Shown here one piece after another: positions 4,924 to 21,592 of a stretch of 26,128 bases of DNA. This DNA is from a virus. A program made the position numbers and the translations under genes. The notes below the pieces were generated by a model. It searched no databases. It was not told the DNA's origin and worked only from the letters and a program-made list of their open reading frames with translations. The DNA is taken from positions 1-26,128 of the IMG/VR virus record IMGVR_UViG_3300031659_000078; one strand, given 5' to 3'. The number at the start of each line of letters is the position of its first letter. The first letter of the stretch is position 1.

Positions 4924-7257
4924 TTAACTTTCTACAAACTTTGCTGCTACCAGCCTGTGGGCCTTCCTTCCCTTGCCTTCTCCTTCCTCTATCAAGAATA
5001 TATCTTGTGACTCAAGAATCAAGTAATTAAATATTTCTTTTCGCATATTGCTGTCCGTTGACTTAAACGGGTGAAGCTTCATGAGATCCTTTTTCATTAT
5101 TCCTTCTGGGCCCATCTTCTCGATTACATTGTAAGCATCTCGGTATCGCTTATCAATAGAATTCTCAACCATCTCGAATTCAATGTATTCTATCAGCTGC
5201 TCAAAACAAAAGTCAACAAGAGCGATAGAAAAGTTAACGCTATCCAAACCAACTGACAAAGCGTATGGATCTTTTGACAATTCCATCGTCAAAGAGATAC
5301 GCATAGCCTTCTCGCGGTTACGTACGATCATCAGCTCCAACCCATTCTTTCTCAGCTCTTTCTTTCGAGTCATAATATCGTCTTCATACGAGTCGAGTCT
5401 GTCAAACGCCTCAGCTGTAAACGGCAGGACGATAGGCTCCATTGGCTTGTCGTAATCGTTACGGCCTTGTGAATTCTTTCCTCGATTGTGGTGCAGTACT
5501 CTACGCTCGATCGTTTCAATCCATGACAGTATCTCTTGAGGTACAGCCCGAGACTTTGAATTCTTATTCATCTTCTGATCGCCTTCCTGAGCAAACATAA
5601 CAATGAATCGATTCAAGAAACCATCACTAATCATCATCTTAGTCATTGACTCTGACAATTTATGTGGCGTAGTCATACCAAGCAGGCTAACAGACGGTCT
5701 GTTGATCGTTAGTGAGTTCTGCTCATCACCAGTCAGCTTATTCTTTAAGATCTCACTCAGGCTCGTGAAGGAGTCTGACGAGTAGGTGCTATCCTGCTTA
5801 CTGAAAAGCTCCATCCAAGCTTTAACCTCAGACAGTTTGTTCTCAGATACATTCTTAGATCCGATTATCTGCATCCAGTGAGCCATTTCGTCTTTAAAGA
5901 ACAAAGCTCGTGGCTCGCTGTATAGCTCAGTGATGATTGCACTCTTGCCGGTAACTTCACCTTTGATAATACTGCCTTGGTTTGCAGCCTGTAATATCTT
6001 AGATACGATTTTGTATGAGTGCTCCTTACCAGCGCCCGTCTCTGCAACGCTCATTGTGTAGACACTTGAGTAATTGTCAAAGTCAGTAGTGAAGTCACGA
6101 CCGATAACGACAGCACACATAGCCAATGAAGCATTCAGTGATGGCATGTAGAGCGGGTACTGAGCAGTAGAGAGCATATAGCTAACAGAGTCACCCATCA
6201 CACCTTTGATCTTTTGAAGCTCAGTAGGTATGTCGTTAAACTCGATGACCTTGCTCTCATCTTGCTTTTTCATTGAGAACTTCTCAGCGCGTCCCTCCTC
6301 GAACTTTCTTACGAATGCTGACAGGTCTATCTCATTACCGTAAGTCTGCTCCCAGCCGTTGTCATACGCCAGCTTGAAGATCGTACCTGCAGTTCTTGGC
6401 GTTGAAGTGTGGTTGGTGTTGGCAAAGGATGCCCACTTCTTTTCCATCGCTGTGCCGTCATGCTTTTGAGACTTATCACTCCACTCATCCCACAGCGCGT
6501 AGCCATTATCAGAGTTTGAGGTCTCGTAAGACAGTGCCATGCCGATGTTAATCCACACGTCATAGTCAGTGTTCTCATCGTTTGGTATAGCCTCCAGAGC
6601 CTCGCGTAGCTCGTCTAGGTTTGATGATCCAGCCTCGTATGCCGAGTCCTTCACAACATCTGGTCGCTCGATAAGGTCTAGTAAGGCTTGAGGCGCATCG
6701 TCAATACCACGGATGTTTGATTTATCGTGCTGAATCGCTTCGTATGAAAAGCCGCTCTTATGGAATGAACCACAGCCCACAACAAAGCTACCGGCAGACA
6801 GAAAGTCAATACCTTTAATTTCTTTCAGGATCTTAACAGTCTTAATGTCTTTGGACTTCTTAAAGTAAAAGTGCTTACCGCCAGAACCCGTCTTAATGAC
6901 AAAGTTACACTTGGTCTCAATGTCAAAGCCAAGCATTGCGTTCAGTTCTTCTATTGCGTTCTCGTTATTTCTTGGATCGAAGTCAACAACAATATCGTCA
7001 GCCGTTAATACAATTCCGTAAGACTGAGCAAATATCTTCTGAGATATAAACGCCTCAATCTGATCCATAGATGGTAAGGGTGCCTTGCTCCAGCCTGTCA
7101 TGCGCGGGTGCTTGTATTGGTTATTGCAATCTTCCATTCCGCACATGCAATTACCGTTTGAGTAAACCCCACGGATTGGCATTACATGATAACCGCAATC
7201 TGCGAAATCAAGAAGCCACTCCTGCATGGTTTCATAGCTCCAATTCTTATCTATCAA
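4924..7257 (-). CDS. Bifunctional primase-polymerase / DUF3987-type helicase
   Basis: This 777-residue fusion has an archaeo-eukaryotic-type prim-pol head: a Cys/His knuckle CMCGMEDC...KHPR (37-52), catalytic DFD (92-94), SGGKHFYF (125-132) and Asp151 in IDFLSAG. A PriCT-2-like segment follows (about 213-300). The C-terminal half is a helicase/ATPase with Walker A AETGAGKE (405-412) and Walker B ALFFKDE (451-457), typical of DUF3987. It should prime and unwind phage DNA and is the main replication initiator candidate here. I read a TTG start at 7255-7257, preceded by a perfect GGAGG seven nucleotides away. No family DNA polymerase is seen in the window, so elongation depends on a gene elsewhere or on the host. 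Confidence 0.9.
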   Translation of the reverse strand: MIDKNWSYETMQEWLLDFADCGYHVMPIRGVYSNGNCMCGMEDCNNQYKHPRMTGWSKAPLPSMDQIEAFISQKIFAQSYGIVLTADDIVVDFDPRNNENAIEELNAMLGFDIETKCNFVIKTGSGGKHFYFKKSKDIKTVKILKEIKGIDFLSAGSFVVGCGSFHKSGFSYEAIQHDKSNIRGIDDAPQALLDLIERPDVVKDSAYEAGSSNLDELREALEAIPNDENTDYDVWINIGMALSYETSNSDNGYALWDEWSDKSQKHDGTAMEKKWASFANTNHTSTPRTAGTIFKLAYDNGWEQTYGNEIDLSAFVRKFEEGRAEKFSMKKQDESKVIEFNDIPTELQKIKGVMGDSVSYMLSTAQYPLYMPSLNASLAMCAVVIGRDFTTDFDNYSSVYTMSVAETGAGKEHSYKIVSKILQAANQGSIIKGEVTGKSAIITELYSEPRALFFKDEMAHWMQIIGSKNVSENKLSEVKAWMELFSKQDSTYSSDSFTSLSEILKNKLTGDEQNSLTINRPSVSLLGMTTPHKLSESMTKMMISDGFLNRFIVMFAQEGDQKMNKNSKSRAVPQEILSWIETIERRVLHHNRGKNSQGRNDYDKPMEPIVLPFTAEAFDRLDSYEDDIMTRKKELRKNGLELMIVRNREKAMRISLTMELSKDPYALSVGLDSVNFSIALVDFCFEQLIEYIEFEMVENSIDKRYRDAYNVIEKMGPEGIMKKDLMKLHPFKSTDSNMRKEIFNYLILESQDIFLIEEGEGKGRKAHRLVAAKFVES

Positions 7258-7272
7258 AATGCAACCTCCAAG

Positions 7273-7812
7273 TTAATCATAAATACCTACAATTCTTTTT
7301 ATTTCAGTCAAGTCTTTTGGGTGCCAGAGATTATATACTGGAACTCCGTAGTCATGCGCTATAGATACCGCTGTAGCAGTTCCACCTTTAACTTTTTTTA
7401 TTCCTATCGGCTGAGCATAGCAAATCAGCACCTGAGATGGGTTATCTAGTCCAAACCCAAGAACTTGATATGCGTTTCTAGCATGAAGAGCCTTCACTCC
7501 TTGCTTTAGACTTTCCCATGCCGGATGGTGCATTGATGCAATGTACATGGCCTTGTCGTAATTGTAAAGGCTTTTTGCATTTAAGTGAGCACCGCACGCT
7601 GAAGTATGACCATTAAACCCATCCCAAGGCAAATATATCTCAGTGTTTGCACCTGCCCCTACCTCGAATGCAGTGTCAGACCCAACAGCGGCACCTGAAC
7701 GTACCACGTAGAGGTTTCTGGCCATCGCCTTAGCAATCATCTTCATCTCATTAAAGATACTGTCGGGGACTTCTCTAGCGCCTACCCCGGTGTAGTACTT
7801 AGGGCTACTCAT
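7273..7812 (-). CDS. SLOG/DprA-like nucleotide-binding protein
   Basis: The 179-residue protein opens with YYTGVGAREVP and carries RSGAAVGSDTAFEVGA, the Rossmann-like glycine-rich pattern of DprA/SLOG proteins (compare GSRxxxP and RSGGAxGAD), then EIYLPWDGFNG. A later GGTATAVSIAHDYGVPVYNL fits the second conserved block. Cellular DprA loads RecA on single-stranded DNA, while other SLOG proteins bind small nucleotides. The phage form is single-domain, so the exact role is open. It overlaps the upstream gene by ATGA and is followed 15 nt later by the primase gene, placing it in the replication operon. Confidence 0.75.
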   Translation of the reverse strand: MSSPKYYTGVGAREVPDSIFNEMKMIAKAMARNLYVVRSGAAVGSDTAFEVGAGANTEIYLPWDGFNGHTSACGAHLNAKSLYNYDKAMYIASMHHPAWESLKQGVKALHARNAYQVLGFGLDNPSQVLICYAQPIGIKKVKGGTATAVSIAHDYGVPVYNLWHPKDLTEIKRIVGIYD

Positions 7813-8018: not shown

Positions 8019-8215
8019 TGTAAACCTCCAATCTCTATAATCTTAGTTGACCCGCATACTGGGCAGTTGTACTCAGACATATCAATATCAGAGTAAGCAT
8101 CGCAGGTCAAGCATTTTACACAAAAACCGTCTGGTGCGTTTACTGGCTTACTTGTCTCTGAGTGGAACCCAGAACCAGACCTTTGGGCGTGTTTTGCAAT
8201 AAAGTTATTTTTCAT
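8015..8215 (-). CDS. Small zinc-ribbon protein
   Basis: This 66-residue protein has a C-terminal CVKCLTC...NCPVCG array consistent with a zinc ribbon; the first half is basic and probably flexible. It is the first gene of the leftward operon, directly behind the promoter at 8255-8283. I chose ATG 8213-8215, although the adjacent TTG (8216-8218) would add one residue; AAGGAAAG precedes both. Phage proteins of this type may bind nucleic acid or host factors, but no specific role can be read. Confidence 0.7.
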   Translation of the reverse strand: MKNNFIAKHAQRSGSGFHSETSKPVNAPDGFCVKCLTCDAYSDIDMSEYNCPVCGSTKIIEIGGLQ

Positions 8216-8254
8216 CAATTCTTTCCTTTTTTTATAATGCTCTGTAGGCCACGA

Positions 8255-8283
8255 ACTATAAGGGTTTGAGCCTCTGAAGTCAA
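8255..8283 (-). promoter_or_regulatory. Leftward promoter of the replication arm
   Basis: On the minus strand TTGACT (8278-8283), a 17-nt spacer and TATAGT (8255-8260) give a strong sigma-70 promoter 40 nt before the first leftward gene. It faces away from the rightward promoter at 8554-8582. Confidence 0.75.
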
Positions 8284-8285
8284 TT

Positions 8286-8379
8286 AAAAGAAAAAAAGGA
8301 GAATAAGAAGGATTAATCCCCCTTGGTATTTAGCCCCTCTTTCAAAATCTCAGAGAAAAAATTCTCCTTTTTTTCTTTT
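8286..8379. repeat. Long inverted repeat in the divergent intergenic region
   Basis: Arms AAAAGAAAAAAAGGAGAAT (8286-8304) and its exact complement (8361-8379) are 19 bp each, separated by 56 nt. The loop contains the 10-bp palindrome GGATTAATCC (8310-8319). The arms have long A and T tracts and the surrounding 8219-8611 region has no gene. It could be a replication origin element, a bidirectional terminator or a transcript-end structure between the two promoters. Confidence 0.8.
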
Positions 8380-8460
8380 TATTAGAATCAGGGAAGAACC
8401 AATAGAATATAAGTAGTATTATTATTAAAAGAATGTATATATTATAGTACTTGTAGCCGT

Positions 8461-8474
8461 AGTTAGCGCTAACT
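8461..8474. repeat. 14-bp perfect palindrome in the divergent region
   Basis: AGTTAGCGCTAACT is a perfect palindrome about 80 nt upstream of the rightward -35 box. Its symmetry suits a dimeric DNA-binding protein, but no second copy was noticed in the window. The rest of 8219-8611 outside the listed sites is A/T-rich and holds no ORF I can support. Confidence 0.65.
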
Positions 8475-8553
8475 TACCACTTGGTTTTTACGTCTCAATA
8501 AAAAAGTAGATTTCTCTTTTAAATTGATATTAATTACTTTTAATTAAAACATC

Positions 8554-8582
8554 TTGACTTTACAGAAAGGCAGTGGTAGTAT
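8554..8582 (+). promoter_or_regulatory. Rightward promoter of the nucleotide-metabolism arm
   Basis: TTGACT (8554-8559), a 17-nt spacer and TAGTAT (8577-8582) lie 30 nt before the RuvC-like start, which has AAGGAG upstream. This promoter likely drives the RuvC-like, thyA and dfr genes. Confidence 0.7.
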
Positions 8583-8611
8583 CGCGTACATACACACATA
8601 AGGAGTCAAAA

Positions 8612-9121
8612 ATGATTTACGCATCCATAGACCCCGGCATCGACGGAGCTATTGCTTTCTTTGAAGACAAAGAGCTTCTCTTCGTCAGCTCGCTCTCATA
8701 CCAGATTTATGGAAAGAACAAGATACTGGAGTTGATCACCCACCTGAATGACATAAAGAATATCTTGGGATCAACCAAGAAGGTGGAGCGAGTAATTATT
8801 GAGCAGGTCGGTGCAATGAAGGGTCAGGGTGTTACTTCTATGTTCTCTTTTGGTGCAAGGTTCGGTGACGCATGCTCACTTGCTAATATGCTGACAAACG
8901 ACATAGAGTTCATCACCCCACAGAAATGGAAGAAGGCGGTAGGTTTGATAGGTCAGGACAAAAAGCAGTCTGCCGTCATGGCTGCAAGACTCTACCCTAA
9001 CCGGTCGGATAGTTTTGTTGAGAAGAACAATCGATGCAAAGATGGATTCAAATACTACGATGGACGCGGTGATGCAGTAATGCTAGGATTGGCAGCTAAC
9101 AAAATGGGAATGGTAAAATGA
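8612..9121 (+). CDS. RuvC-like Holliday junction resolvase
   Basis: The 169-residue protein has the RNase H-fold layout of Ruv[13 protein letters not shown] near the N-terminus (catalytic Asp7), [14 protein letters not shown] (catalytic Glu) in the middle, [11 protein letters not shown]...[14 protein letters not shown], and [15 protein letters not shown] (catalytic Asp) at the C-terminus. It should cut four-way or branched DNA produced during phage recombination or before packaging. The start is ATG 8612 with AAGGAG. A longer frame from GTG 8573 would begin inside the promoter and is rejected. It overlaps thyA by ATGA. Confidence 0.87.
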
Positions 9122-9969
9122 CGCACCAGTACATCGAACTCTGCAAAAGAATACTTGACGAGGGTGAATACATCTTCAATGAGCGCACAGGTAAAAATTG
9201 CCTTACGTTAATTAATGCCGACCTTGAGTACAATGTTGGGGCAGGTGAGTTTCCATTAGTGACGACAAGAAAGTCTTTCTATAAGTCTGCAATAGCTGAG
9301 ATGATCGGTTACTTACGTGGTTACGACAACGCTGAGGACTTCAGGAACATAGGAACCAACACTTGGAATGCTAATGCAAACCTGAATGACGACTGGCTTA
9401 GTAACCCCACCAGAAAAGGTGACGATGATATGGGTCGGGTCTACGGTGTGCAGGGTAGGTCTTGGATGAGGCCGGATGGTGACTCCATTGATCAGCTTGC
9501 TAAGTTAATATCAAACCTCTCAAATGGTATTGATGATAGAGGCGAGATTCTTAGTTTCTATAATCCGGGTGAGTTTGATCTGGGCTGCTTACGACCTTGC
9601 ATGCACACTCATACATTCTCATTGGTCAATGGAACGCTTAACCTGACAAGCTACCAGCGCTCCTGTGACGCCCCTCTGGGCCTTGTGTTTAATATGATAC
9701 AAGTATACTTCCTGCTGGCGATCGTCGCTAGGATCACCGGTAACAAGCCCGGAATGGCATATCACAAGATAGTTAACGCTCATATGTATGAGGATCAAGT
9801 TGAGCTAATGAAGATGCAAGTAGAGCGTGAAGTTAAGCCTGCTGCTAGGTTAATAATTAACCAAGAGATCAAAACACTGAACGATCTTGAGACGTGGGTC
9901 TCAATGGACGACTTCTCTGTTGCAGATTACGAGCACCACAACCCAATCAAATACCCATTCTCAGTATAA
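9118..9969 (+). CDS. thyA: Thymidylate synthase
   Basis: This 283-residue enzyme converts dUMP to dTMP using methylene-tetrahydrofolate. Conserved features are NERTGKN (phosphate Arg), [10 protein letters not shown], the catalytic Cys in [21 protein letters not shown] including the dUMP-selecting Asn, [12 protein letters not shown], and a C-terminal [18 protein letters not shown] replaces the E. coli-type VYGKQWRAW; I associate this variant with the ThyA of Vibrio and relatives, which suggests host-derived ancestry. It overlaps the RuvC-like gene and is followed 13 nt later by DHFR, which recycles the dihydrofolate it makes. Confidence 0.96.
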
Positions 9970-9982
9970 GGAAAATATATTT

Positions 9983-10471
9983 ATGATTAAGTTAATTGTC
10001 GCAGCGGATCTAAACGGAGCGATAGGCATAAGAAATAAAATGCCGTGGCATCTACCTGCGGATTTGGCTAACTTTAAAAAATTGACGCTAGGCAAGAAAA
10101 TAATAATGGGCAGGAAGACTTTCGAAAGTCTGCCCGGAATGCTTCCGGGTAGGGAGCATATAGTTATCACGAGGAATAAGAACTACAAAGCGAAAGACTG
10201 TGTTGTCGTTAACAGCTTGAAAGAGGCGATCTATCATGTTGGTTCGAGTGAGGCTTTTATTATTGGTGGCGGTGATATATACCGACAAGCGATGGATATG
10301 AAGGTGGTCAGCAAGGTTCACTTAACGATCGTACACACTGAGCTAAAGAGCGCAGATACATTCTTTGATTTAGATTTTACTGGCTTTGTTCTCGTTGACG
10401 GAATGAAGAATTACGCAGACAGTAAAAATAAATATGATTTCACTTTCCATGATTTTATTTCTTGCGATTAA
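9983..10471 (+). CDS. folA: Dihydrofolate reductase
   Basis: The 162-residue protein shows the classical DHFR pattern: IVAADLNGAIGIRNKMPWHLPADLANFKKLT at the N-terminus (acidic catalytic Asp in LPAD), IIMGRKTFESLP, then FIIGGGDIYRQAM and a C-terminal strand pair with VHLTIVHTEL. It reduces dihydrofolate with NADPH, completing the thymidylate cycle with ThyA. ATG 9983 has AAGGAAA about 8 nt upstream. The longer frame starting at 9887 lies inside thyA and is rejected. Confidence 0.95.
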   Translation: MIKLIVAADLNGAIGIRNKMPWHLPADLANFKKLTLGKKIIMGRKTFESLPGMLPGREHIVITRNKNYKAKDCVVVNSLKEAIYHVGSSEAFIIGGGDIYRQAMDMKVVSKVHLTIVHTELKSADTFFDLDFTGFVLVDGMKNYADSKNKYDFTFHDFISCD

Positions 10472-10478
10472 ATAAATA

Positions 10479-10487
10479 TGGTATTCT
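10479..10487 (+). promoter_or_regulatory. Possible extended -10 promoter before phoH
   Basis: TGGTATTCT is a TGn-TATTCT extended -10 lying 29 nt before the phoH ATG. No good -35 is placed correctly (TTGCGA at 10462-10467 is only 14 nt away). The call is weak. Confidence 0.3.
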
Positions 10488-10515
10488 ATAGTCTCTATTA
10501 ACGAGAGGTAGCTTT

Positions 10516-11205
10516 ATGAGTAAGAAGGCGCGTGTAACTAGAATTGAAGACTTCAAGCCTAAGTCTGGGATTGATACATGGGAATTATCTGACGAACAGA
10601 GAGACCTAAGAAGCATTATTAGGTCAAGCGATTTAACTCTTGTTACGGGTAAAGCTGGGGTTGGTAAGACAGCCGCTATTCTTTATACGTTTGCTGAAAT
10701 CTACCTGAAGGATGTCACAAAAAATATTATTGTAATTAGAACCCCTGTCGAAGCTGGTATTGATAAGATCGGATTCTTGCCCGGTGATACACTTGAAAAG
10801 CTCGAACCTCACTTCGCACCCGCAAAGAAAATCCTTGAGCAGTTAATGGGCAAAGGGAAAGTTGAGTGTGATGTTGGTAAGCGAATCCATTTCAAGATCC
10901 CTAACTTCGTCCTAGGCGACACTTTTGACGATAGCCTTATCGTTATCAGTGAAGCACAACAGATGGCTCCAAACATGATTAAGCTCCTTCTAGAGCGGGT
11001 CGGTAAGGATTCAATTGTTGTAGTTGAGGGTGATGAGACCCAGTTGTACACAACAGGTGGTAGCCGTAACGGTCTAACTCATGCTTTTGACTTATTTAAA
11101 AAGCATCCTCAGCCCGGTATTGACTTCTTTGAGTTTAGTAATAATACAAATATGCGCTCTGATTTTGTTGGTCGAGTGAATAAAGTATATGAACTAGACG
11201 ACTAA
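10516..11205 (+). CDS. phoH: PhoH-like P-loop ATPase
   Basis: The 229-residue protein matches phage PhoH: Walker A TGKAGVGKT (44-52), IIVIRTPVEAGIDKIGFLPGD (71-91), Walker B region LIVISEAQQM (141-150), and VVVEGDETQL followed by an Arg-bearing NTNMRSDF. The usual Walker B Asp before Glu is Ser145. PhoH proteins are predicted ATPases with proposed roles in RNA metabolism or phosphate stress and are frequent in marine phages; the molecular job is unsettled. The start has AGAGGTAG upstream. The stop is one nucleotide before the next -35 box. Confidence 0.9.
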   Translation: MSKKARVTRIEDFKPKSGIDTWELSDEQRDLRSIIRSSDLTLVTGKAGVGKTAAILYTFAEIYLKDVTKNIIVIRTPVEAGIDKIGFLPGDTLEKLEPHFAPAKKILEQLMGKGKVECDVGKRIHFKIPNFVLGDTFDDSLIVISEAQQMAPNMIKLLLERVGKDSIVVVEGDETQLYTTGGSRNGLTHAFDLFKKHPQPGIDFFEFSNNTNMRSDFVGRVNKVYELDD

Positions 11206-11206
11206 C

Positions 11207-11265
11207 TTGACAATCTGTTAATTTTATAAGATAATCTCCTTCAAATAAAGCAAGGGGATTTTTTT
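11207..11265 (+). promoter_or_regulatory. Promoter built into a terminator hairpin
   Basis: TTGACA (11207-11212), a 17-nt spacer and GATAAT (11230-11235) form a strong promoter. Overlapping it, AATCTCCTT (11233-11241) pairs with AAGGGGATT (11252-11260) with one G-U pair, followed by T tracts up to the ATG at 11266. RNA entering from phoH can form this terminator. RNA started near 11242 lacks the left arm and cannot. The right arm also contains the AAGGGG ribosome site. Confidence 0.75.
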
Positions 11266-11739
11266 ATGTCTAAAAACAAAACAAAAGTAGAGGCTTTGGC
11301 GTTAGCAGACGATCTGTGCGGTAAGCATAGTGCCCATACTTTACAACAATTAGCTTCAACTCTTTTCCAAAGAACGCTTGACACAAAGCAGCGTATAAAA
11401 TGGATGTCTTCAGAAGATGACATGCTGGCAACATTCTTTTACTTAACGTCAAAAGAAGAGTTGTGTGAAGCATTATCTTGTGATATGGAGTCTCTGTATC
11501 GTCGCGCCAGACACCTCGGTGTGGTATCACCTTCGTTCGACACAATAACAGCTATTGACTTATCTGCTGCTGTTGATTTATTCTCTGCAGGTATCGACCA
11601 GCGTGAAGTTCTTTCTTTCTTTGGTATAGATTCAGTAACTGTACCGGTAAGATCACTAACGATGGCAGAGCATTCCGGCATCTATGCCTCACTCGAAGAT
11701 GCTCCAAACTACCAGATGGATTTATTTGATGAAGATTAA
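11266..11739 (+). CDS. HTH-like protein with C-terminal sliding-clamp-binding motif
   Basis: The 157-residue protein is not a family I can name. Residues 45-86 (KWMSSEDDMLATFF...LCEALSCDMESLYRRARHLG) have the Myb/SANT-like helix-turn-helix spacing, with an acidic ED start and a recognition-helix-like LYRRARHLG. The last eight residues are QMDLFDED; QMDLF fits the bacterial beta-clamp-binding consensus QL(S/D)LF. The sliding clamp gene follows immediately and overlaps by 11 nt. Together these suggest a DNA-binding factor that docks on the phage clamp, perhaps in replication or replication-coupled transcription; this role is inferred. Expression comes from the adjacent promoter with AAGGGG as ribosome site. 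Confidence 0.7.
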   Translation: MSKNKTKVEALALADDLCGKHSAHTLQQLASTLFQRTLDTKQRIKWMSSEDDMLATFFYLTSKEELCEALSCDMESLYRRARHLGVVSPSFDTITAIDLSAAVDLFSAGIDQREVLSFFGIDSVTVPVRSLTMAEHSGIYASLEDAPNYQMDLFDED

Positions 11740-12823
11740 ACTAACAGCCTTAAATCTAAGGGAGGCACTGTCACAGGTGTCTAAGATGGTCTCTAAGGGG
11801 TCTCACAATCCAATATTGACGCATGTGTTGCTTGAACTTAGTGATGGTTTTATTGAGTTCACTGGCAAAAACGATTCAATGCAGAAGACTGTGAAGATAG
11901 AATGCAATGCTGATGTTGACTGCTTTGCTATAGCTATTGAGTTTACAAAGCTTTACAATCTATGCAAATCTTTGCAGGATGAGAAGATAGTCACAATATC
12001 TATTGAAGACGAGAAGGCAAAGTTATCTTGTGGCAAAAGCAAGATAACATTATCAACGCTACCTGCTGCTGACTTCCCATCGTTTGAATCTGGAGAGATG
12101 AAACAAATTGAAGTACCTATAGAAGAAATAATTACTGGTATTGACTATGTTGCATCATCTGCCGGAAAAGACCACCCACGCCGCTGCGTAAACTCTGTCG
12201 TGTTGGCATCTGACGGTGTAACATTCGATGTGGTGGCTACCAGTGGTGCAAAGCTTTCTGTTTACTCTATAAAAAGTAACGTTGCACCAATGAGTATAAT
12301 AATACCCATAAAAAGCGTAGCTGCAGTAAAAGAAGGGCTTATGTCATGCCTCACTGCCGGATACTGCAATAATTCAATCGTAATAAAAGGCGACAACTCA
12401 ATATTGTACGTCTCTGTACTTGATGAGAAGTTCGTTCAATACAAAGCAGCCATACCGACTGGGGAGATAAGACATAAATTAACCTTCAGCAAGGAAAATA
12501 TAGTTGACAGCCTCGGTAGAATCAGTATTATAGCTGATGACCCCAAGACAAGTCGGTGCTCAATAGACTCAAAGGCCGGTGTCTCGGATGCAATAATAGT
12601 TGGGAAGTTATTGTCTGGCAGTGGAAACCAGATAACAGAATCATTTCCAATTGACAATGAATCAGAGTATGATCTATCAGTATCTTACAATCCACAGTAT
12701 CTTCTTGATTCAATTAACAAGATGGCGGAAGAGAAGGTTACTTGCAGTATTTACGGGGATAAGAAAATAATAGTTTTAAAAAGCGGAAACTTTACTAGCG
12801 TAATCACTCAAGTATTAATATAG
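11729..12823 (+). CDS. dnaN: DNA polymerase III beta subunit-like sliding clamp
   Basis: The 364-residue length is close to the 366 residues of E. coli DnaN. Conserved signs include SHNPILTHVLLEL near the N-terminus, the LPAADFPSFE signature in the first third, and the repeating three-domain beta pattern with a C-terminal region DKKIIVLKSGNFTSVITQV. It should form a dimeric ring that tethers polymerase and other partners to DNA. ATG 11729 lies inside the end of the preceding gene, so translation is probably coupled; the earlier start at 11684 is within that gene and rejected. The coding sequence is visibly rich in ATA isoleucine codons, matching the phage tRNA for that codon. Confidence 0.92.
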   Translation: MKIKLTALNLREALSQVSKMVSKGSHNPILTHVLLELSDGFIEFTGKNDSMQKTVKIECNADVDCFAIAIEFTKLYNLCKSLQDEKIVTISIEDEKAKLSCGKSKITLSTLPAADFPSFESGEMKQIEVPIEEIITGIDYVASSAGKDHPRRCVNSVVLASDGVTFDVVATSGAKLSVYSIKSNVAPMSIIIPIKSVAAVKEGLMSCLTAGYCNNSIVIKGDNSILYVSVLDEKFVQYKAAIPTGEIRHKLTFSKENIVDSLGRISIIADDPKTSRCSIDSKAGVSDAIIVGKLLSGSGNQITESFPIDNESEYDLSVSYNPQYLLDSINKMAEEKVTCSIYGDKKIIVLKSGNFTSVITQVLI

Positions 12824-12834
12824 GGAATATTATT

Positions 12835-13413
12835 TTGGATATTGAAGTCTTAGAGCCATTTAACGATCAGAAAGTAATCAACAACTATACCTTTCACTTA
12901 GACGAGGAAATTAAAGAGCCAAGATATTACAGAATGCTAACTGAGGTAATGGCATCTGCCAGCAAGGATGATTCTGTTTCGCTTTACATTAATAGTCAAG
13001 GGGGTAGTGCTGACGGCATGAACACAATCATAACCAGCATCGCAATGTGCGAATGCGGGGTTACAGGGATACTTACAGGTGATGCATCTAGTGCGGCATC
13101 AGCAATACTGTTAGCCTGTGACGAAGCTATGATTGCCGACATGGCGACAATGATGATCCATACCGCAGCATATGGTGCTGGTGGAAAGTCCACAGACGTT
13201 GCTTCAATGGTTGAGCATACTCAAAAGTGGATCGCTGAGTTTATGGAAAGAACCTACGCAGATTTCTTGTATCCAGATGAGTTTGAAAAAGCAATTAACG
13301 GAAAAGATGTATACCTTGATGCCCAGCAAATAGTCGAGCGTTTTGAGAATAGGGATAACATTCGCTTAAAAAAGATGGAGAGTGATCATTTAGAAGAGGA
13401 GATTATACAATAA
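12835..13413 (+). CDS. ClpP-like serine protease
   Basis: The 192-residue protein has the ClpP/crotonase fold signs: SLYINSQGGSADGMNTI, the catalytic Ser in TGDASSAASAILLA (Ser86 is the best fit), the catalytic His in MMIHTAAYG (His109) and a likely Asp158 in GKDVYLDAQQ. The acidic C-terminal tail ends DHLEEEIIQ. It is probably active, but no Clp ATPase is encoded nearby, so it would need a host unfoldase or act alone. The start is TTG 12835 with GGGAA upstream. It overlaps the next gene by one base (TAATG). Phage ClpP-like proteins are often head maturation proteases, but no capsid gene is near, so a regulatory role is also possible. Confidence 0.85.
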   Translation: MDIEVLEPFNDQKVINNYTFHLDEEIKEPRYYRMLTEVMASASKDDSVSLYINSQGGSADGMNTIITSIAMCECGVTGILTGDASSAASAILLACDEAMIADMATMMIHTAAYGAGGKSTDVASMVEHTQKWIAEFMERTYADFLYPDEFEKAINGKDVYLDAQQIVERFENRDNIRLKKMESDHLEEEIIQ

Positions 13414-15017
13414 TGCAAGTCTTGGATGATAATGACTTTATTGAAATACTTAGGTTGACCTACAATGAGGGTAGGTCTTCACGGGAGGTAGCCGAGATTA
13501 TCGGCTGCTCAAAAACAACCATTGGTAGCTTCCTCCGTAGGGAGGGAGGCTACAATGAGTTCTGGGAGAAATACGATGACAAGCCTGTCGCAGCTGGCGA
13601 AACAAAATCAAGACGCGATCAACTAAAAAAACTTAGCGGTAAAAGTTTTGTGATTACTTCTGCACAGAATAATACTTATGTTCACGATGGTTTTCTTAGT
13701 GCATTGAAAGTTTACGCAGAAAAGAATGACGCTGAAATTATTGTTGGTACGTTTCACTACAATAAGAACGCATACCAAAAAAGCGATTCTTACGACACAG
13801 AGTGCTGGTTTGATCCAAAGATTCGAGAGTACATTCTTGATGAGGATTGCGAGCTTGCAGAGTCCCTGATGTGGTGCGGAAGCCTAGACATTATACCTAC
13901 TGCAGTAAACCCAATGACTGGCTTACACAGCTACACAGGCTGCTCTAGCGGTATATTTCCACACGCAAAGGTGCAGCTAGAATCTCTCCCTACTGGAAAG
14001 TTTTCGCCTGCTAAAATAATGTACGCGACTGGTGCAGTGACTCAGTTAAATTACATCCAAAGGAAGGCTGGTCAGATTGCAGAGTTTCACCATGTGTTTG
14101 GTGCTCTGTCTGTGACTATTGATGACGATGGTGATTGGTTTGTCCGGCAGTTAATTGCAGACTCAGACACTGGCTCTTTCCATGATCTTAATTATTGCTA
14201 CGATAGTGATTCATTTAGTCTTACTGAGTCTATTGAGGCGATTAACTGGGGTGATGTTCACGCTGCAAAGCTTGACAGCTCAGTGGCTAACGCAAGCTGG
14301 CTAGATAATGATTCTATGCTTGACAAGCTAAAGCCAAAACGACAATTCCTACATGATATTTTTGACATGGAGTATAGGAACCACCACAGTATTGGAAATC
14401 ACTACTTCCGATATAAAATGTTTGTCAATCAAACTGAAAGCGTAAAAAAGGAAATAGAATTAACGTCAAATGTGATTGCGTCAATGGATCGTGATTTTTC
14501 AGAAATAATTATCGTGCAAAGTAATCACGACTTAGCGTTAAAGAAATGGTTGTCTGAGCAGGACTATAGGAGCGACCCGGTAAACGCTGAGTTCTTTCTT
14601 GAGTTACAGCTTGCGTCTTATAAGGCGATCTCAGGTAATGACTCCTCCTTCGCCGTCTTTGAGTATGCGTGTAAGAGTTCAAACGAGGCGTTAAAGGACG
14701 TACTGTTTTTACGCGAAGATGAAAGCTATCAGATCGCTGGTGGTATTGAGTGTGGTCAGCATGGTCACAATGGCAATAATGGTGCTAGAGGTTCTGTGCG
14801 ATCTTTACAAATATCTGGCAGTAAGTCCAACTCAGGTCATACTCACTCTGCAACGATTAAAGATGGCGTGTATATAGCGGGTGTAAGCGGTAAGTTGGAT
14901 ATGGGGTACAACATCGGTGGAAGTTCGTGGTCTAATTCACACATTGTAACGTACAGCAACGGCAAAAGAGCGATCATTACGTTGAGGGATGGCAAGTGGC
15001 GAGCTACAAATAAGTAG
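13413..15017 (+). CDS. HTH-containing calcineurin-like metallophosphoesterase
   Basis: The 534-residue protein starts with a helix-turn-helix (EGRSSREVAEIIGCSKTTIGSFLRR, 19-43) and then a region of unknown fold. The second half has the metallophosphoesterase series in order: GDVHAAKLD (280-288), HDIFDMEYRNHH (314-325), QSNHDLAL (369-376), CGQHGHNG (447-454) and SGHTHS (474-479). These are the metal-binding Asp/His/Asn residues of a dinuclear phosphoesterase, plausibly a nuclease. I vaguely recall large proteins of this type in T5-like phages, where such a protein acts early against the host, but I could not check this. It follows clpP by a one-base overlap, and a hairpin ends the unit at 15046-15067. 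Confidence 0.8.
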   Translation: MQVLDDNDFIEILRLTYNEGRSSREVAEIIGCSKTTIGSFLRREGGYNEFWEKYDDKPVAAGETKSRRDQLKKLSGKSFVITSAQNNTYVHDGFLSALKVYAEKNDAEIIVGTFHYNKNAYQKSDSYDTECWFDPKIREYILDEDCELAESLMWCGSLDIIPTAVNPMTGLHSYTGCSSGIFPHAKVQLESLPTGKFSPAKIMYATGAVTQLNYIQRKAGQIAEFHHVFGALSVTIDDDGDWFVRQLIADSDTGSFHDLNYCYDSDSFSLTESIEAINWGDVHAAKLDSSVANASWLDNDSMLDKLKPKRQFLHDIFDMEYRNHHSIGNHYFRYKMFVNQTESVKKEIELTSNVIASMDRDFSEIIIVQSNHDLALKKWLSEQDYRSDPVNAEFFLELQLASYKAISGNDSSFAVFEYACKSSNEALKDVLFLREDESYQIAGGIECGQHGHNGNNGARGSVRSLQISGSKSNSGHTHSATIKDGVYIAGVSGKLDMGYNIGGSSWSNSHIVTYSNGKRAIITLRDGKWRATNK

Positions 15018-15033
15018 TATCCAAATTCCTTTC

Positions 15034-15067
15034 TGTTATAATAACAAACCCGGCTCTCGTCGGGTTT
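15034..15067 (+). terminator. Terminator-like hairpin with extended -10 promoter
   Basis: AAACCCGGC (15046-15054), loop TCTC and GTCGGGTTT (15059-15067) form a 9-bp stem with one G-U pair; the T tail is short. Just upstream is TGTTATAAT (15034-15042), an extended -10 without a clear -35. A start near 15049 would fall inside the left arm, as at other unit boundaries in this window. Confidence 0.6.
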
Positions 15068-15089
15068 ACTTCCTAAAAGGTATCAATAA

Positions 15090-15338
15090 GTGATAGAAAC
15101 AATATTATTCAGCGCATCTTGGTGTGGGCCATGCAAGGCACTAAAGAAATACGCGAAAGAGAATGACATTAGCTTTAATTCAGTATACGATATAGATACT
15201 GAAGAAGGCGCAGAGCTATCGGCATTGCACAATATTCGGGGAGTCCCAACAGTCATTACTTTAAATGACAGTACCGAAGTAAGCAGGTTTACTGGTATGA
15301 ATTTTGATAAACTATATGAAATTAAGGATCTAAAATGA
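15090..15338 (+). CDS. Thioredoxin-like protein
   Basis: This 82-residue single-domain protein has the active site SASWCGPCKALKKYA (Cys12, Cys15) and the cis-proline region IRGVPTVITL, followed by the GMNFDKLYE helix. It probably reduces the disulfide formed on the NrdA subunit encoded downstream. The start is GTG 15090 with AAAGG about 9 nt away; no ATG is placed suitably. The stop overlaps nrdB by ATGA. Confidence 0.9.
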   Translation: MIETILFSASWCGPCKALKKYAKENDISFNSVYDIDTEEGAELSALHNIRGVPTVITLNDSTEVSRFTGMNFDKLYEIKDLK

Positions 15339-21310: not shown

Positions 21311-21562
21311 ATGAAAACATTACCTTTTGACGAACGAATAGAGTGGCTTGAGAACCACTTTGCACACTTTATTCTTAACAATGACTGGAATGCCATTGAT
21401 GAGTATGTGAGTGAGTGCGATGAGCTTGTCGGTTTGTCTTTTCAAGACTGGCTAGTGGATGATTGTGAGATTGAAATGGCTAGTGATATTGAAGCTGGGC
21501 TTAATCTTGGACGCCATGCTGATAAAGCTGCCGCTGATTACATTGATCACTTTATGTTATAA
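21311..21562 (+). CDS. Small acidic helical phage protein of unknown function
   Basis: The 83-residue protein is very acidic (DERIEWLENHFAHF, DEYVSECDELVG, DDCEIEMASDIEAG) and predicted helical. It is the first gene behind the promoter at 21250-21278, with AGAGGC upstream of ATG 21311. Strong negative charge is common in small early phage proteins that bind host enzymes, but no target can be read. Confidence 0.65.
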   Translation: MKTLPFDERIEWLENHFAHFILNNDWNAIDEYVSECDELVGLSFQDWLVDDCEIEMASDIEAGLNLGRHADKAAADYIDHFML

Positions 21563-21592
21563 TTGGGTAAATAGTAAAAAAAGAGCTTTAAG

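Follow-up and report, generated by a model that had tools for sequence, protein, structure and literature searches.

A putative tandem helix-turn-helix phage protein with a conserved candidate clamp-binding tail, and its possible part in late-gene activation

The DNA analysed here, a stretch of 26,128 nucleotides from the IMG/VR virus record IMGVR_UViG_3300031659_000078 (the window), encodes at positions 11266-11739 (plus strand) a 157-residue protein (P0001), which is a real, conserved feature and belongs to an unnamed family. Its conservation across three phage lineages gives good support to a two-part architecture, in which a predicted DNA-binding body, putatively of two tandem helix-turn-helix (HTH) units, is followed by a tail that would dock on a sliding clamp. 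The late structural genes of these phages have extended -10 promoters lacking a -35 element; this late-promoter architecture is a new finding and raises the case above the sighting of a motif. We propose that the tandem-HTH protein, tethered to the phage clamp and co-expressed with it, may act as a replication-coupled activator of late genes, a reading which we consider tenable, if somewhat short of probable.

The C-terminal motif, the homologues and the predicted DNA-binding body

The open reading frame ends ...NYQMDLFDED, and the candidate clamp-binding motif QMDLF (residues 150-154; 11713-11727, plus strand), followed by the acidic residues DED, lies at the extreme C-terminus, as a sequence-only reading of the window had claimed. 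It stands behind a non-conserved linker (residues 133-149; 11662-11712, plus strand). The pattern Q[LM][SDEN]LF has a probability of P = 2.3e-5 in a random C-terminal 12-mer of the same composition, and was present in three of the 293 ORF tails of related contigs, all three of which are orthologues of the protein. The motif is of the Q-x-x-L-F type and is both terminal and conserved, the properties by which beta-clamp-binding motifs were judged here. A possible clamp-binding tail was also observed in a protein of Microcystis phage Mae-JY04 (L040, 5255-6691), which is encoded two genes 3′ of dnaN and ends RQIDLFGAVA.

Within IMG/VR, the window phage itself or its near-identical relatives are represented by L001 (100%) and L002 (97%), and homologues occur in two further lineages, one being the 104-kb contig L006 (56%) and the other L003/L004, with 51% identity over the alignment. 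The homologues end QMELFADED and QMELFE; all three lineages share Q, M, L and F without exception, and the approximately 16 residues preceding them vary in sequence, forming a divergent linker. Across the lineages the protein is more conserved (51-56% identity) than the clamp (29-36%). The position noted for the gene, directly upstream of the clamp gene with an overlap of 11 nt, is correct for the window, where the ATG of DnaN is at 11729, and for L003, where the overlap is the same 11 nt, but does not extend to L006, in which DNA methyltransferase-like and HNH endonuclease-like genes (6447-7759) separate the homologue from dnaN. Conservation of QxxLF in homologues beside dnaN, which the sequence-only reading had proposed as a check, was seen as QM[DE]LF in both further lineages, and loss of the motif with retention of the neighbour was not encountered, because QM[DE]LF persists even where dnaN is not the next gene. 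We also weighed a programmed frameshift that would fuse the protein to the clamp and set it aside, since the overlap of 11 nt, also present in L002 and L003, is an ordinary translational one.

Rescans with alignments of the protein, the clamp and PhoH as baits gave no new lineage, and the family as known here therefore comprises three lineages. Pfam, NCBIfam and PHROGs returned no family match for the protein, and no relative was found among annotated phage records or in a search of genome contigs.

The most conserved segment of the protein, residues 45-88 (11398-11529, plus strand), has Myb-like spacing and is predicted to form a first HTH; a second HTH is predicted at residues 96-131 (11551-11658, plus strand). 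An AlphaFold2 model, built from the four available sequences in both orders, is of low confidence (pLDDT about 46) and places helices at residues 49-60, 63-69 and 74-83. Profile comparison with hhalign gave an end-to-end alignment of residues 64-127 with gp53 of mycobacteriophage DotProduct (prob 94), and the HTH proteins whose genes immediately precede dnaN in Arthrobacter phages give prob 53 as a pair, compared with a maximum of prob 1 among 40 random phage proteins. The helix pattern and the profile comparison thus point to two tandem HTHs. The Myb/HTH-like spacing originally reported for residues 45-86 is strengthened by the predicted helices and by the similarity to phage HTH proteins, although none of the Pfam HTH models scores on the protein.

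DotProduct gp53 and the Arthrobacter phage proteins BillyTP gp77 and Persistence gp70 are of the PHROG 664 type and have two consecutive HTHs that align with those predicted in the window protein; the genes for BillyTP gp77 and Persistence gp70 (L034, 3615-4004; L035, 3615-3980) also adjoin their own dnaN upstream, as in the window phage. Unlike the window protein, the PHROG 664-type proteins have neither a QxxLF tail nor the N-terminal helices. We describe the window protein as similar to this type, and not as a member of it, because neither it nor its homologues directly match the PHROG 664 profile.

The neighbouring clamp and the operon

The next gene (11729-12823, plus strand) had been read as a DnaN-type clamp of 364 residues, an assignment confirmed by Pfam matches to all three DnaN domains (PF00712/02767/02768) and by TIGR00663, which scores above its cut-off; like bacterial beta clamps, the product is a full three-domain DnaN. 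On alignment with the Salmonella beta clamp, its T171, G173, L176 and P243 match T172, G174, L177 and P242, which we take to be pocket positions by analogy to E. coli beta. Whereas host clamps keep an MPMRL-type pocket motif, the window clamp lacks it, its C-tail being VITQVLI instead of VVMPMRL; in the three lineages the tails read TQVLI, SQVMV and TKKII where the canonical sequence is MPMRL. The derived tail is common to the clamps at window 11729-12823, L003 6386-7480 and L006 7865-8965, and the clamps of Arthrobacter, Salinibacter and Rhizobium phages retain MP-containing tails. Judged from these sequences, the QMDLF tail is likely to bind the phage clamp; the specificity of the pocket is uncertain, because the clamps carry the derived C-tail in place of MPMRL, and the phage clamp may differ from that of the host in what it binds.

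The intergenic gap upstream of the operon contains an early-type sigma70 promoter-like sequence, TTGACA-17-GATAAT (11207-11235, plus strand), which at 11/12 is the joint best promoter-like match within 8200-15100.

Several other features of these genomes were recorded. The divergent intergenic region of the window contains a 23-bp inverted repeat (8282-8304 and 8361-8383), and a weaker, similar pair is present at the equivalent place in L003 (3143-3166 and 3295-3318). The phoH-P0001 genes of the 104-kb relative are preceded, at a distance of about 1.3 kb, by the gene for an AAA ATPase (L010, 11185-12495) that weakly resembles phage clamp-loader profiles. At 13413-15017, the window encodes a T5 A1-like 'DNA transfer protein' (PHROG 1745); this protein has an HTH segment at its N-terminus (residues about 10-45), and its relatives carry a homeodomain-like annotation.

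Two promoter classes

Genes outside the structural block, those of this operon included, have TTGACA-type promoters. The late structural block of all three lineages carries TGNTATAAT about 18-80 nt 5′ of the start codon, matches to terminase, scaffold and tape measure serving as a check on the late identity of the genes. In the 104-kb relative (G005), 9 of 32 late genes have TGNTATAAT in the 90 nt before them, compared with 1 of the 132 remaining genes (Fisher p=1.3e-6); it precedes 7 of 22 late genes in G004, and a 13-kb late fragment of a window-type phage has six sites, all on the coding strand. Such late sites often overlap the stop codon of the preceding gene. Motif scanning of the window located two extended -10 promoter-like sites without a -35 element (TGTTATAAT), both on the plus strand, one upstream of the thioredoxin/nrd genes (15034-15042) and the other preceding a terminase-small-subunit-like gene by 30 nt (21555-21563). 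Besides these window positions, sites of the two promoter classes were located in L007-L012 (G005), L019-L021 (G004) and L063.

No strongly conserved position was found upstream of 20 TGNTATAAT sites, and their mean best match to a -35 element (2.4/6) is below the 2.96 (sd 0.18) obtained in shuffles. As a positive control, the same procedure recovered TATAAATA before 8 of 34 T4 late genes, and in five control phages without the protein, a small set whose late modules are mostly unrelated, TGNTATAAT precedes 0-3 genes. Extended -10 promoters can function with sigma70 alone, so the existence of this class proves no activator, and the late promoters could be served by some different factor of the phage.

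Late transcription and competing readings

To our knowledge, activation of late genes through a clamp is known from T4-like phages only. The late promoters of T4 consist of a -10 box, with no -35 element and no need of an upstream activator site (PMC2988020); at the beta flap, gp33 replaces sigma domain 4, and the activating clamp is bound to no specific site (PMC2988020, PMC7892883). T4 gp55 has a conserved clamp epitope behind a divergent linker (PMC2988020). Its C-terminus reads SLDFLYEAND. The window protein resembles gp33 and gp55, the partners of gp45, in being small and in having a conserved C-terminal hydrophobic-acidic candidate clamp epitope preceded by a divergent linker, and the two kinds of phage are alike in encoding a clamp and in having late genes with single-element -10 promoters that lack a -35. 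They differ in that gp33 does not recognise DNA sequence, whereas the window protein has predicted HTHs; in the clamp, which is gp45 in T4 and a DnaN-type beta clamp here; in the late promoter, which is TATAAATA in T4, whereas TGNTATAAT resembles the host sigma70 extended -10; and in gp55, since no gp55-like sigma was noticed in window-type phages. The analogy with late transcription, raised by the sequence-only reading, has gained from the -35-less extended -10 late promoters and the early-type operon promoter, but not from any sequence relation to gp33 or gp55, for which hhalign gave prob 0.1 and 0.2, respectively.

Because the late promoters show T4-late-type architecture, a clamp-tethered late activator is plausible, and a clamp-coupled late activator is our leading explanation for finding together late promoters with neither a -35 element nor an upstream site, a clamp encoded by the phage and, co-expressed with that clamp, a protein bearing a terminal epitope. 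In the proposed mechanism, the protein and the clamp would be co-expressed from the early promoter, and the QM[DE]LF tail would tether the phage-specific tandem-HTH protein to the beta-type clamp of the phage itself. Clamp rings remaining on replicating DNA would carry the protein, which could then recruit or stabilise host sigma70 RNA polymerase at late promoters possessing only an extended -10 (TGNTATAAT), substituting for the missing -35 contact as T4 gp33 does with gp45. The motif and its conservation, the operon and the promoter classes are observed, and we infer clamp binding, polymerase contact and activation. Against the late-activator reading stand the position of the gene among replication genes, the restriction of the family to three lineages, the derived clamp tails and the absence of gp33/gp55 homology. 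The wider proposition, of a replication-coupled late switch that arose independently of T4 and in which a non-T4 tailed phage relies on a tandem-HTH protein on a DnaN clamp, sigma70, -35-less promoters and the host polymerase, strikes us as possible but decidedly tentative.

The best rival takes the protein for a replication factor tethered to the clamp; as an HTH protein it would bind an origin or a fork, and its tail would bring the phage clamp and host polymerase III to phage DNA. The gene shares with that of the clamp a replication module comprising a primase-helicase (4924-7257, minus strand), a Sak4-like ATPase, a DUF669 protein, a Cas4-like nuclease, a helicase and a protein weakly resembling RuvC. 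The related contigs yielded no DNA polymerase of family A, B or C-alpha type; as IMG/VR contigs they are possibly fragments, although the 104-kb contig among them has structural, replication and nucleotide genes; host Pol III would therefore need engaging, and a phage clamp working with host polymerase III is the simplest reading. This rival ranks as the best because the contigs have a gene for a primase-helicase but none detectable for a DNA polymerase, and it is a serious one because sigma70 alone can use extended -10 promoters and the gene lies among replication genes. It also has a precedent in the plasmid initiator TrfA, which recruits the clamp and host DNA polymerase III; TrfA and other clamp-binding replication proteins combine DNA binding, a clamp motif and a replication context as the window protein appears to, but TrfA is unlike it in size and domains, and no iterons were found near the window gene. 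Three relatives have only AT-rich inverted repeats and no iteron-like array in their divergent intergenic region, the protein contains neither the ATPase nor the large winged-helix domain usual in initiators, and a replication factor would leave the late promoter class unexplained. Overall we hold this function to be unlikely, though far from negligible.

Three further readings are less likely. That the protein is a small HTH regulator of the usual kind, such as one controlling its own operon, with a C-terminal motif unrelated to clamps, would be in keeping with the actinophage tandem-HTH proteins that have no QxxLF tail, those of the Arthrobacter phages being encoded directly upstream of dnaN; given Q, M, L and F invariant in three lineages behind a variable linker, and a chance expectation of 2.3e-5, this is improbable. 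S. aureus phage clamp inhibitors offer a comparison for a host-directed role, in which the tail would occupy the host beta clamp and inhibit or redirect host replication, the HTH being secondary. The motif matches the general bacterial consensus and the operon promoter is of early type, as such a role would have it, but the conserved HTH body and co-expression with the phage clamp favour a partner role, and the phage itself appears dependent on host Pol III, making interference with the host clamp very improbable. We likewise give little credence to the protein as a diverged relative of phage T5 D5, a DNA-binding protein named as a transcriptional regulator, to which a clamp tail has been added. 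PHROG 323 ('transcriptional regulator, D5-like') scores on the homologues in L006 (E=0.029) and L003 (0.27), over the part of the profile to which the Arthrobacter HTH protein also aligns, and a T5 A1-type gene lies nearby; however, PHROG 323 also scores in nearly all control genomes and does not match the window protein itself, and an alignment of four D5 proteins of T5-like phages gives no significant score in profile comparison (prob 0.15). A KASIA 'DNA binding protein', taken up as a D5 candidate, was rejected as unrelated.

If the late-activator reading is true, these phages would provide a second, unrelated case of late genes coupled to replication through a clamp, using a bacterial-type clamp and ordinary sigma70. 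Clamp-based coupling of late genes to replication would thereby be shown to be a general solution, and standard E. coli proteins would allow the proposal to be tested. How T5 switches from one temporal class to the next has been stated to be unexplained (PMC7472727), and a clamp-tethered activator would be a concrete kind of factor to seek there.
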